27,305 nucleotides of DNA, from the IMG/VR virus record IMGVR_UViG_3300005842_000039, positions 1 through 27,305 of that record; one strand, 5' to 3'. Position numbers and translations under genes: made by a program. The notes under the pieces are model-generated. The model was not told where the DNA came from. It ran no database searches and worked only from the letters and a program-made list of their open reading frames with translations. This stretch comes from a virus. Every line of letters starts with the position of its first letter. Positions within the stretch are counted from its first letter, which is position 1. Of this stretch, positions 5,077 to 27,305 are shown one piece after another.

Positions 5077-5282
5077 TCGGAGCCTCGCAGCGCTTTTTCG
5101 ATCATCGGACCGAAGTGGTTGTCGGTGTGCAACTTCCGCAGGCTCGCGGTTATTGCATCCACCCGAGGCGTCAACTCCTCCGCCTCGCGCTGCTGGTCCT
5201 GGGCCCGATCTCGCAGCTTCTCCGCCATGCGGAGCTTCTCGTCCGCCTTCTCCACCCGCTTGCGCCACAACAACCACATCAC
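5073..5282 (-). CDS. Small coiled-coil protein
   Basis: A 69-residue protein with a short aromatic start (MMWLLWRKR) followed by a long charged helix (residues 8-58) with coiled-coil character. The GTG at 5282 overlaps the previous stop and is followed directly by ATG, so either may be used. The N-terminus is too short to span the membrane but could anchor peripherally. It lies in the lysis cassette between two membrane proteins; a spanin-like job is unlikely for a monoderm host. Function unknown. Confidence 0.65.
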   Translation of the reverse strand: MMWLLWRKRVEKADEKLRMAEKLRDRAQDQQREAEELTPRVDAITASLRKLHTDNHFGPMIEKALRGSE

Positions 5283-5593
5283 GAGGGACCACCCCGTCTC
5301 TGAGTGTTGCGCCGAGCCGCCCGGTCGCCCAGAGCCTTCAGTACCTTGTCCTGGTTCTCCGCAAGCACCGTCAACTTGGCCACCGACTCTATGAGCGTCC
5401 TGTTGGTTTCAGTATTGGCAGCTACCCCGGACTCGGCTATCTCAGCCCTCTTCTCGGCACTTTCCCGCAGTTGCTCCGCGACCCGTCGCCCCAGGATCGC
5501 ACCCCGCAGCATCGCGTAGAACGTCGCCAGCAGCGCCGTAACCAGGAGACCGATGAGATACCAAGGCAAACTCTGCGCAGTTATTTCAACCAT
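5279..5593 (-). CDS. Membrane-anchored coiled-coil protein
   Basis: A 104-residue protein with one N-terminal membrane helix (residues about 9-32) followed by a long charged helix (35-90) that should lie in the cytoplasm or outside as a coiled coil, and a basic tail. It is the first gene of the lysis cassette, coupled to the next gene by a 4-base overlap. The 55-base gap upstream is AT-rich for this genome and may contain a promoter. Candidate lysis regulator or holin partner; not assignable by sequence. Confidence 0.68.
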   Translation of the reverse strand: MVEITAQSLPWYLIGLLVTALLATFYAMLRGAILGRRVAEQLRESAEKRAEIAESGVAANTETNRTLIESVAKLTVLAENQDKVLKALGDRAARRNTQRRGGPS

Positions 5594-6270: not shown

Positions 6271-6864
6271 TCAGACCACCGGTCCCAGGTACATGCCCCA
6301 GAAAGTCGATCCGGCGCTGACCGCCTTCGAGGTGCCGCCATTGAGGTAAAGGGCCGCAAGAGCGCTGCCCCGGTAGATGGGCGCCATGGTGAACACGTTC
6401 AGCCACTCCCCGTTGGTGTTGGTCTCGTCGGACCGCTGGTAGGCGCCCGTGGTGGTCGCGACGTTGGACACCTGGTCGGTGGTGGTGACCTGAATGCCGC
6501 CCTCCACCAGATCCCCGACCGTCGCCCCGGCCAGATTGACCGACAGGACAGTCGCGCCGAAAAGCCACCAGGAAGGCGCCTGACCGGCTGGCTGCGTCCA
6601 GGTGGCCTGCCCCAGGGTGACGCCGCCGGTGTTGTCCCATTGGATCGACTGGGCCTTGACGAAGTCGGTGCCGGAAATGAACCCGGAACCGTTGGAGGTC
6701 TGCTGGAAGATGAACGACAGCCGCCCCTCGAACGCCCGGAACGGCGCCTGCTCGGCCCGCAGATCCGCGTCGATCGCGGACGCCAGCCGGAAGGCGTCCT
6801 GCACATCGGCGAAATCGGTCGTGAACGGGTACGGAAACCCTTCGACCGCAGTGTTCCCGCTCAT
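6271..6864 (-). CDS. Distal tail/fibre protein
   Basis: A 197-residue protein starting at the ATG that overlaps the previous stop (ATGA). It begins with the segment YPFTTDFADVQDAFRLASAI shared with the downstream protein, followed by a beta-rich domain ending in STFWGMYLGPVV. The pair probably forms tip or fibre proteins assembled on the long fibre gene just upstream. No enzyme motif is seen. Antisense and upstream extensions of this frame were not accepted, because the preceding gene covers that DNA. Confidence 0.7.
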   Translation of the reverse strand: MSGNTAVEGFPYPFTTDFADVQDAFRLASAIDADLRAEQAPFRAFEGRLSFIFQQTSNGSGFISGTDFVKAQSIQWDNTGGVTLGQATWTQPAGQAPSWWLFGATVLSVNLAGATVGDLVEGGIQVTTTDQVSNVATTTGAYQRSDETNTNGEWLNVFTMAPIYRGSALAALYLNGGTSKAVSAGSTFWGMYLGPVV

Positions 6865-24947: not shown

Positions 24948-25119
24948 CGCAGATTCGTACGCGCATCGGCTGGCCGGTCCAGGACGCCCCGTCGTAGACC
25001 AGCCAGCCCTGGACGCGTAGCGACTCGTCGGAGGCTCGCCGCGCCTGGTCGCAGCGGTCGCATGCCTGCTCAGTCAGTTCCGGGAAGACGAGGTCGGCCC
25101 AGTGCGGGAGGGTGTTCAT
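24820..25119 (-). CDS. Small zinc-ribbon-like protein
   Basis: A 99-residue protein with two CxxC pairs, ACDRCD near residue 20 and ICVSCQ near 57, separated by 35 residues (GWLVYDGASW in between): a typical four-cysteine zinc ribbon. The C-terminal third is Pro/Arg/Gln/Trp-rich and disordered. GGAGGG lies 6 bases before the ATG, and its start overlaps the stop of the upstream membrane gene. Its last 128 bases overlap the methyltransferase on the other strand. May bind nucleic acid; not proven. Confidence 0.65.
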   Translation of the reverse strand: MNTLPHWADLVFPELTEQACDRCDQARRASDESLRVQGWLVYDGASWTGQPMRVRICVSCQQSAKDEQRPRPRPAYQAPLFQWHQQKPGPWSPDRPWWA

Positions 25120-25268
25120 CGCCGCCCTCCGAGGGTGTCCAGGGCGACGGCCAGGACGTAGAAGACGATGAACAGGACGCAGGCGGCCAGGATGTATGGG
25201 CCGAGCAGCAGCAGGATGAAGAAGAACGCGATCGGGTGTCTTCGGGCGATGTCTGGGTGGCGGGGCAT
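25116..25268 (-). CDS. Small single-span membrane protein
   Basis: A 50-residue protein: a basic start (MPRHPDIARRHP), a long hydrophobic stretch (about residues 13-43, perhaps two tightly packed spans) and a basic end. GAGGAGGAG lies 6 bases upstream of the ATG, and its stop overlaps the next ATG (ATGA). It is the first gene transcribed leftward from the promoter at 25300-25327. Function unknown. Confidence 0.65.
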   Translation of the reverse strand: MPRHPDIARRHPIAFFFILLLLGPYILAACVLFIVFYVLAVALDTLGGRR

Positions 25269-25299
25269 GGGCTCCTCCTCGGGGAGTCTGTCTGCTCTG

Positions 25300-25327
25300 A
25301 GAATACGCCCCTTGCGCTGCCCGTCAA
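25300..25327 (-). promoter_or_regulatory. Leftward sigma70-type promoter
   Basis: On the minus strand, TTGACG (25327-25322), 16 bases, then TATTCT (25305-25300). The start would be near 25293, leaving a 25-base leader with a strong ribosome site before the gene at 25268. This is one of the best promoter matches in the window and interleaves with the rightward promoter. Confidence 0.7.
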
Positions 25328-25340
25328 GCTGTTGTATGCT
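25312..25340 (+). promoter_or_regulatory. Rightward sigma70-type promoter of the candidate RNA
   Basis: On the plus strand, TTGCGC (25312-25317), a 17-base spacer, then TATGCT (25335-25340). The predicted start is about 25347. Its -35 lies inside the spacer of the leftward promoter, and the leftward -35 lies inside its own spacer, so the two cannot be occupied together. Confidence 0.65.
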
Positions 25341-25346
25341 CTAAGC

Positions 25347-25541
25347 AGACATCGGGTTGCTGGTGAACAACGTCGGTAAAAGTGGAAACCAGTGCACAAC
25401 TGAAACGGGGACCGGCCAGGACCCCCACCGGAGAAGGCGATTGAGTCGCGCCGGAGGGCCGTAGAGCCTGGTCAGGTCCCCAGCCATACGTCAAGATACG
25501 GAAAGGCCCGCGCCCTCTTCCCTGAGGTGCGGGCCTTTTTG
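25347..25541 (+). ncRNA. Candidate structured non-coding RNA, about 195 nt
   Basis: The stretch lies between a good promoter and an intrinsic terminator and has no credible gene. Domain 1: GTTGCTGGT (25356-25364) pairs with ACCAG (25388-25392) and CAAC (25397-25400), leaving a 4-base bulge and an A-rich 23-base loop. Domain 2: GGGGACCGGCCAGG (25407-25420) pairs with CCTGGTC-A-GGTCCCC (25467-25481), 14 pairs with one wobble and one bulged A; inside it CCC-A-CCGG pairs with CCGG-A-GGG, topped by a GCGA/TCGC hairpin (25437-25449). A single-stranded linker leads to the terminator. Two short frames inside have no ribosome site and weak G/C bias at third positions. It matches no RNA family that I recognise. 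A trans-acting regulator or a packaging-associated RNA are both possible; neither is shown. Confidence 0.65.
25502..25540 (+). terminator. Intrinsic terminator of the candidate RNA
   Basis: AAAGGCCCGC (25502-25511) and GCGGGCCTTT (25529-25538) form a perfect 10-bp stem followed by more T; the loop contains a further CCTC/GAGG pairing. Run of five Ts ends at 25540. The A-rich 5' side gives a weaker terminator for leftward transcription from the genes at 25552 and beyond. Confidence 0.88.
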
Positions 25542-25551
25542 CGTGCTAGTT

Positions 25552-25710
25552 CTAGCTGGTCTTGCGCCAGGTCGTGCCGGGGTTCTGCGTGACGAACACC
25601 TTCACCTCGGTCTCCGTCACCGCAGCGAACGTCTTGACGACCTTGCCTTCCTTGTCCTTCACCTCGTAGTTGGCCAGCGAAGAACCGCCGCCACCACAGT
25701 TACAACCCAT
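25552..25710 (-). CDS. Small Cys/Gly-rich N-terminus protein
   Basis: A 52-residue protein beginning MGCNCGGGGSS, followed by a compact beta-type domain (YEVKDKEGKVVKTFAAVTE ... TTWRKTS). The strong ribosome site TAGGAGGAGG overlaps the protease stop, so it is co-translated with the head genes. The C-x-C-G motif could bind metal or form a disulfide; the domain resembles short beta-hairpin proteins found near head genes in actinophages. Function unknown. It is too short for many gene finders. Confidence 0.72.
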   Translation of the reverse strand: MGCNCGGGGSSLANYEVKDKEGKVVKTFAAVTETEVKVFVTQNPGTTWRKTS

Positions 25711-25722
25711 CGGGTCCTCCTC

Positions 25723-27305
25723 CTACTCGACCAGGGCGATCAGCAGATCGCCCATGGCCTCATCGTAATCAGCCTGCGGGTCGGTCGCGGTGGCCGCCGC
25801 GACCAGCGCCTGCCACTCCGCCGCCTTAGCCGCCGCCTCGTCCGCGCGGCGCTGCTCAGCGAGCATGCCCCGGGCGATGGCCGCGCCCAGCGCCTCCGTG
25901 TCCCCACCCCAGTCGCCACCACCCTGCGAGACATCGTCGGCCTTCGGCAGGGCCCCAGCGGCGACCAGGGACAGCAGCTGCTCCTGCTCGTCGACACCGT
26001 CGATGGAGGCAGCCAGCATGCGGGGGATCGGGAACCCGGCCGTGTTGACGTGCAGGGCGGCCACCATTTCCAGGGTCCCGCCGATACGCCGCCAGTCGCC
26101 GGACAGCGGCGACGCGCTCATCTGCCGGATCGCCGCCTCATCAGCCTCCGGGGCAAGCACACCAGCAACCCAGATGCCGTACTCATCCTCGCCCGCACGC
26201 ACATACGCCCCGACGTTCGAGGTCTGGTCGTAATGCTCGGCGGCAGCCGCATAGCCCAGGTTCGGCTTGGCGTGACCACCACCGTAGGTGAGGCGGCCGA
26301 CCGGAAGCCGGGTGCCGTCATCGGTGGCGATCTCACCGGTGTGGAAGTAGGCGTATCCGGTGTTGGAGTGCGGCGGCTTCACACACGAGTGGCCGATGCC
26401 GACATGGCAGGTATCCCAGACGGCGACGTGACCGGAAAGGGTCCGGTCGTCGGCGATGGTGACCGGGCGCGGGCCGGTGAACTTCGGGTCCTCAAACGCG
26501 GACTTGGGCGGGGCGAATGCAGGCGCGCCAGCAGCTGCCATCAGTGCGGCCATCTTCTCTCCGGCCTTCCAGTTCTCAGGCAGGCTGCTTTCGCAGCCCT
26601 TGCGCTTGGCGATGGCGGTCAGCCGCTTCCGGAACGTGGCCATCGGGATCTTCGGGTTGGCGCGGCCGTACGAGGAAACAGCGTCGGACACGTCCGCGCA
26701 GGACGCGATCGGGAACCGGCGCCCCTGCGGGTCGACGAAGTCCTCGTCGCCCAGCTTGCTGCGGACTTCGGCCTTGGTGACATCCGGGGCAGCGTAGGTG
26801 CCGCCACCGATACCGCCGCCACCCTGGCCCTGCTCAGCGTCGGTGCCTTGCTGCTCGGGGGCGTCAGCCTTGTTCTTCGAGGGGAGGCGACGCTTGGCGA
26901 ACTCCTCGAACTCGGCATCCGAGAGCCAGATTCCGGATTCTTCGGCGAACTCTTCGTCGTCCTGGTTGCCCTTGATCTTCTCGGGGTCGAGCTTCTTCTT
27001 CTTGGCAAAGCCGCTGTCGTCGTCGGTCTCGAAGAGCTGACCCAGCTCAGCGATCGTCTCCACAACGTTTTCGATCTTGCCGCTGGCGGTGGTGCCCTCA
27101 ACGTTCGGGTCGTGGGAGTCGATCGGGGTCAGCTTCGCGTGACCGGACAGCTCCGCGAATGCAGGGATGTGCACGAGCGTCGCCGACGCGAACCGGCCGG
27201 ACCGGACCATCTTCAACCGGGGGCCGTCGTACGCCTCCTCCGCCATGGCCGGGGCGCCGCAGCCGCAGTCACCACCGGTCTGCTTGGCGTACGCCGCCTT
27301 GGCCG
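25723..27305 (-). CDS. Prohead/capsid maturation protease, 5' end beyond the window
   Basis: The frame has an ATG at 27246 (507 residues from there) but stays open to the window edge with a plausible coding sequence (DCGCGAPAM just before that ATG), so the true start may lie outside. From the internal ATG: an N-terminal strand pattern (SGRFASATLVHIPAF), a Gly/acidic linker with GQGGGGIGGG, a helical DUF6582-like segment (RRFPIASCADVSDAVSSYGRA and RFRKRL-type continuation, about 170-220), then the protease domain with AAAEHYDQTSNVGAYV (H338) and MSASPLSGDWR (S379), matching the His/Ser of the phage serine-protease fold. It would cleave the capsid N-terminal scaffold. An Ala/Glu-rich helical tail follows. 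May be fused to or follow the portal gene. Confidence 0.82.
   Translation of the reverse strand, partial: AKAAYAKQTGGDCGCGAPAMAEEAYDGPRLKMVRSGRFASATLVHIPAFAELSGHAKLTPIDSHDPNVEGTTASGKIENVVETIAELGQLFETDDDSGFAKKKKLDPEKIKGNQDDEEFAEESGIWLSDAEFEEFAKRRLPSKNKADAPEQQGTDAEQGQGGGGIGGGTYAAPDVTKAEVRSKLGDEDFVDPQGRRFPIASCADVSDAVSSYGRANPKIPMATFRKRLTAIAKRKGCESSLPENWKAGEKMAALMAAAGAPAFAPPKSAFEDPKFTGPRPVTIADDRTLSGHVAVWDTCHVGIGHSCVKPPHSNTGYAYFHTGEIATDDGTRLPVGRLTYGGGHAKPNLGYAAAAEHYDQTSNVGAYVRAGEDEYGIWVAGVLAPEADEAAIRQMSASPLSGDWRRIGGTLEMVAALHVNTAGFPIPRMLAASIDGVDEQEQLLSLVAAGALPKADDVSQGGGDWGGDTEALGAAIARGMLAEQRRADEAAAKAAEWQALVAAATATDPQADYDEAMGDLLIALVE

Follow-up and report, generated by a model that had tools for sequence, protein, structure and literature searches.

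A conserved structured RNA of uncultured phages: a candidate gene-independent leader found ahead of unrelated small genes and tRNA-like arrays

What kind of RNA would be made from a short intergenic locus near the head genes of an uncultured phage, and what might it do? The locus occupies about 25347-25541 on the plus strand of the window, by which we mean the whole 27,305-base IMG/VR virus record analysed here, and it is laid out as promoter, RNA and terminator. Two minus-strand genes converge on it: one for a Cys-rich 52-aa protein (25552-25710; phrog_14225, weakly DUF7196) and a head-maturation protease/portal-side gene (25723-27246). On the opposite flank lie two small minus-strand genes, together with a methyltransferase and a glycosyltransferase. 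In cultured phages, relatives of the protease (less than 60% identity) belong mostly to phages of Mycobacterium, Gordonia, Microbacterium and similar genera. Because these relatives mostly infect actinobacterial genera, the uncultured soil phages that carry the RNA probably have actinobacterial hosts as well. The predicted fold of the whole RNA region has a z of -3.51, and 0 of 200 shuffled sequences were equally stable.

The putative promoter (25312-25340, plus strand) joins TTGCGC (25312-25317) to TATGCT (25335-25340) across 17 nt, and from its position transcription is expected to start near 25347. In relatives, 46 profile matches place the same block ahead of many small genes; the window seeded this profile, so that its own score there (E=2.3e-11) is not independent. 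The plus-strand intrinsic terminator at 25498-25541 has a predicted folding energy of -31.3 kcal/mol and a terminal TTTTT run. Its site is kept in relatives, and it is not exclusive to the RNA, for it also borders the convergent Cys-rich gene. An earlier, sequence-only reading of this DNA had proposed a promoter at 25312-25340 and a terminator at 25502-25540, and sequence and fold place both where it had them. A consensus promoter scanner made no call at 25312-25340; neither did a terminator scanner at 25498-25541, probably owing to its loop limit. On the minus strand, a divergent promoter-like block (TTGACG-16-TATTCT, 25288-25328) lies ahead of a small gene at 25116-25268. The two opposite-strand blocks overlap within 25288-25340, and the RNA and this gene may compete for polymerase.

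Using the protease as a query, we gathered 35 close relatives; blastn and profile searches of these recovered two blocks of the locus, namely the promoter with a 5' module, A, and a long hairpin, hp. Distant phages came from motif scans covering 2.9 million viral contigs. In all, hp is present in 21 distinct IMG/VR phages at one copy per genome, second weak model matches in some records being reverse-strand echoes of the palindromic stem. Among the extra matches to a looser tip motif, the structure is present only in L121 and L123. The transcript would comprise two independent modules, a pseudoknot and a hairpin, expressed from a recurring phage promoter.

The hairpin (25407-25481, plus strand; 75-90 nt long across phages) follows a conserved, single-stranded lead-in, CAACTGAAAC (25397-25406), that is found also in L086 and L094. 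Its basal stem, P1, has 14 pairs (25407-25420/25467-25481) and a bulged A25474; P2 has 8 pairs (25424-25431/25451-25458); a one-sided internal loop, AGAAG (25432-25436), leads to P3, with 5 pairs and a three-base loop (25437-25441/25445-25449). The tip, AGAAGGCGATTGAGTCGCG (25432-25450), is nearly invariant and follows the pattern AGANGGCGATNRANTCGCG in the 21 distinct sequences, that is, the AGAAG bulge plus GCGAU-YRA-RUCGC. The sequence-only reading had named compensatory base changes in P1 as a check on the structure, and the relatives contain them. In P2, 149 of the 160 cells from the 21 distinct sequences are standard pairs, whereas permuting the arms within type gives 121.4 (sd 3.7); kinship among the sequences is uncorrected in this comparison, and each sequence was assigned whichever P2 type (one-base bulge present or absent) gave more pairs, a choice that leans slightly towards pairing. 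None of 10,000 such shuffles reached 149. Five of the eight P2 pairs change type; pairs 2-5 show three or four standard types and pair 6 shows two. In the close set of 13 sequences, 92.3% of cells are paired, versus 32-52% with partners slid. P3 hardly varies, and hence gives no covariation signal in either direction. The covariance model was built from 13 sequences, which match it by construction; the window, one of these members, scores 99.7 bits and close relatives score up to 108, whereas the distant phages, whose stem sequences differ and which lie outside the model, score 25-63. The breadth of pair types and the presence of distant phages make chance an unlikely source of the pairing. 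Judged by these comparisons, hp is a real, selected RNA fold that has kept its shape across at least 21 phages.

Module A, a 45-nt conserved element (25348-25392, plus strand), is predicted to form an H-type pseudoknot. Stem 1 would pair 25348-25350 with 25372-25374 and 25356-25359 with 25368-25371, and stem 2 would pair 25360-25364 with 25388-25392. Like hp, A occurs once per genome. Its 12 distinct sequences are nearly invariant (93% column identity), with both-sided changes in 5 cells of stem 2. A 9-pair 5' helix had been drawn here earlier; 7 of its pairs are kept in relatives, but these do not covary, and stem 2 does so instead. Given this covariation, and a crossing stem that is mostly kept, the 5' part is better drawn as a pseudoknot. 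Support for A is weaker than that for hp because A varies so little.

Could the locus encode a peptide? The only plausible frame, from a GTG at 25363 within A, has conserved codons without silent changes and remains open in most copies of A, as would suit an attenuator with the leader peptide GTG AAC AAC GTC NNN AAA GGT GGA AAC. However, it meets a stop after four codons in L030 and has lost its start in L003, silent changes are not in excess, and the paired sites covary; we consider such an attenuator very improbable. In hp, one-nucleotide indels at paired columns break every frame. Nothing at the locus codes for protein on this evidence, in line with the earlier view that it has no reading frame with a ribosome site.

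The RNA also corresponds to no family that we could name. In Rfam release 15, the window was unmatched at the gathering threshold and the near region was unmatched at E up to 5; 13 loci from relatives returned tRNA matches only, and GOLLD and other Rfam families gave no convincing match at permissive thresholds. Searched by blastn with the region as query, annotated phages and plasmids gave no match. Module A alone had a single, chance-level match in annotated phages, and a 34-nt tip query likewise gave chance-level matches only, the one in Streptomyces phage Raleigh (13.5 bits) being in an annotated coding frame. The exact tip motif occurs 8 times in 84,980 cellular genomes; we judge these matches, in unrelated bacteria and lacking the flanking stems, to be due to chance. 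A weak hp-model match in G017 falls within sequence that reads as terminase-like coding. The open-access literature that we searched contains no description of this element. The Rfam result and the conserved structure thus agree with the sequence-only reading that this is an undescribed structured phage RNA. Structured phage leader RNAs as such are already known; within the searches made, this family and its modular use are new.

The relatives show where the RNA usually sits. Usually the promoter is followed by A and/or hp, then by a ribosome site and the start codon of a small gene. Of the 21 distinct copies of hp, 13 are followed within about 150 nt by a frame that has a ribosome site, and the distance from hp to the start codon is 23-32 nt (about 25) in seven of eight leaders measured. 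In the eighth, L004, a tRNA-like element without a normal anticodon (6606-6674, minus strand) lies between hp and the cargo gene. The cargo frames are mutually unrelated and include secreted proteins, small basic CCPMVAAV-type proteins and others; one secreted protein resembles peptidase-inhibitor family I36 weakly, below threshold. By eye, hp is the first folded element after a sigma-70-like promoter in L005, L008, L023, L087, L093 and L123. Either module can lead the same gene types alone (L018 versus L022). Leaders also contain a third conserved RNA, module C (TTACTTACCCATGTGGGNTCGATGAGACT), whose tip is fixed and whose flanking stems differ; it was seen in L030 (6400-6435, minus strand), in L022 (about 7950, minus strand) and in L134 (5540-5600). 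Comparison among phages thus shows a conserved structure, its place behind promoter-like sequence and its spacing of about 25 nt before a small-gene start. The free-standing form described in the sequence-only reading is the exception, as hp is most often the 5' leader of a small cargo gene; promoter and RNA without a gene behind were seen in three cases, the window, L030 and L093. A riboswitch-like control of translation was also considered. In predicted folds of eight leaders, hp pairs with no ribosome site, and it forms its own hairpin in seven, with L022 folding differently; a translational switch is therefore unlikely.

What, then, might the RNA do? We tentatively favour, with a little less than an even chance of its being right, a gene-independent cis-acting 5' leader whose tip is bound by a host factor and which acts on elongation or RNA stability. 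The RNA would fold on leaving the polymerase, and the tip would be held by RNA polymerase or elongation factors, or by a factor protecting the 5' end against RNases. Synthesis or survival of the downstream RNA, whether message or tRNA-like array, would be favoured. The window would have lost its cargo gene or never gained one, and the leader there would run into the terminator to yield an RNA of about 195 nt; a search behind the RNA in the window revealed no trace of a cargo-gene remnant. Several facts argue for this reading: hp stands upstream of unrelated frames at a near-constant distance; it is the first folded element behind promoters; it opens untranslated arrays, where protection or antitermination would be of use; its tip is invariant while its stems covary, as in protein-bound RNAs; and A and hp each lead alone, with module C behaving alike. 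Two facts count against it. Copies without a gene behind are not visibly decayed (99.7 bits in the window, 73.9 in L030 and 53.8 in L093), and each genome has a single copy, unlike HK022 with its two put sites.

The main rival, to which we assign a substantial minority of the probability, is a trans-acting small RNA. Here A and hp would themselves be the functional molecule, whose conserved single-stranded parts would bind a protein or RNA of the host, and the downstream genes would be passengers on the RNA's promoter. The RNA does stand alone, flanked by promoter and terminator, in the window and in L030, and promoter and hp occur geneless in L093; the single copy per genome and the shifting gene contexts also suit a trans-acting product, and tRNA-like neighbours in arrays could be cut by RNase P, freeing the RNA. 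Yet most relatives show no evident terminator separating hp from the frame that follows it, and the analysis turned up no target or partner. It is improbable that the locus is mainly a boundary or recombination module whose leader and terminator provide homologous ends for cargo swapping, with an incidental fold. Cargo does vary among relatives while those ends are kept, but compensating changes show that the RNA fold is selected, and conservation at the DNA level needs no pairing. A role in virion assembly or packaging, like that of the phi29 pRNA, is scarcely credible. The length is similar and head genes lie nearby in the window; however, Rfam offers no match, the layout of promoter, leader and cargo is unlike that of pRNA, and distant copies occur in replication-side arrays away from head genes. 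The tie to capsid genes or virion assembly that the sequence-only reading had suggested is not supported by this comparison, since distant copies of hp lie in replication-side or other regions with no rule-like packaging neighbourhood.

Under the cis-acting leader that we prefer, the closest known counterpart is the put RNA of HK022, an antiterminator just behind a promoter that acts on whatever is downstream (PMC9378689). Like put, the present RNA is a short phage leader near a promoter with a bulged stem-loop; gene independence was shown for put and we infer it here. Judged from sequence, A and hp would lie, as put-type elements do, in nascent RNA downstream of a phage promoter. That type is further marked by binding to the zinc-binding domain of RNA polymerase, with readthrough of terminators, and by two consecutive stem-loops of about 70 nt; in place of these stem-loops, hp is one long hairpin and A a predicted pseudoknot. 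Put RNA is present in two copies in a lambdoid E. coli phage and has been proven to bind RNA polymerase (PMC9378689), whereas our RNA occurs once per genome in what are probably actinophages; the likeness drawn here is one of architecture. The phi29-type pRNA shares size class and phage origin with our RNA, but a model match is absent and the genomic setting is different. Some bacterial mRNAs, such as that of ompA, carry a stable stabilising hairpin near the 5' end; compared with these, the sequence of the hp tip is conserved far beyond what stability alone needs. A wider proposal is that A, hp and C together represent a novel class of phage RNA modules, mobile and independent of the gene behind them, which would capture a host factor and serve messages and arrays alike in uncultured, probably actinobacterial, phages, as an actinobacterial counterpart of put-type antitermination or as a new RNA shield. 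It strikes us as unlikely on balance, if worth entertaining. Tips are fixed in all three modules, and covarying stems are claimed for hp only.

This is a phage RNA family supported by covariation, without a database entry, that spans unrelated gene contexts and is linked to unusual arrays of tRNA-like elements. Should the tip prove to bind polymerase or to block RNases, actinobacterial phages would have in it a control element made of RNA alone; to our knowledge, none has been described in phages of that phylum. The hairpin would also provide a well-delimited target of 75 nt for pull-down and structural studies.

The arrays are found in six distant phages, where a noncoding stretch of about 300-950 nt begins with the elements (L103 1-1100; L094 4780-5400; L086 1-700; L087 2440-2930; L083 11680-12640; L123 5780-6060); the hp of L103 is a variant form, judged by eye. 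They hold tRNA-like elements, several with odd, hairpin or missing anticodons. This placement of an RNA beside tRNA-like elements recalls GOLLD, a phage RNA in tRNA clusters with a pseudo-tRNA part (PMC6582537). Unlike GOLLD (>400 nt), hp is 75-90 nt long, is found outside arrays too and has no match to the GOLLD covariance model. Where checked, the array sits between an exonuclease gene (phrog_466 in L094; similar to Cas4/RecB-like exonucleases in L087) and a gene that we read as SSB-like, which has no family match. In L087 (3195-5195, minus strand), the exonuclease gene appears to be split by an intein-like stretch. One tRNA in L094 carries an insert of roughly 100 nt (5120-5292). Several arrays end in a large hairpin, GAGGGGCGG...CCGCCCCTC, and a motif common to L083, L087 and L123 near the array end, GTCCGGAGAGACGGAC, is possibly another RNA element.
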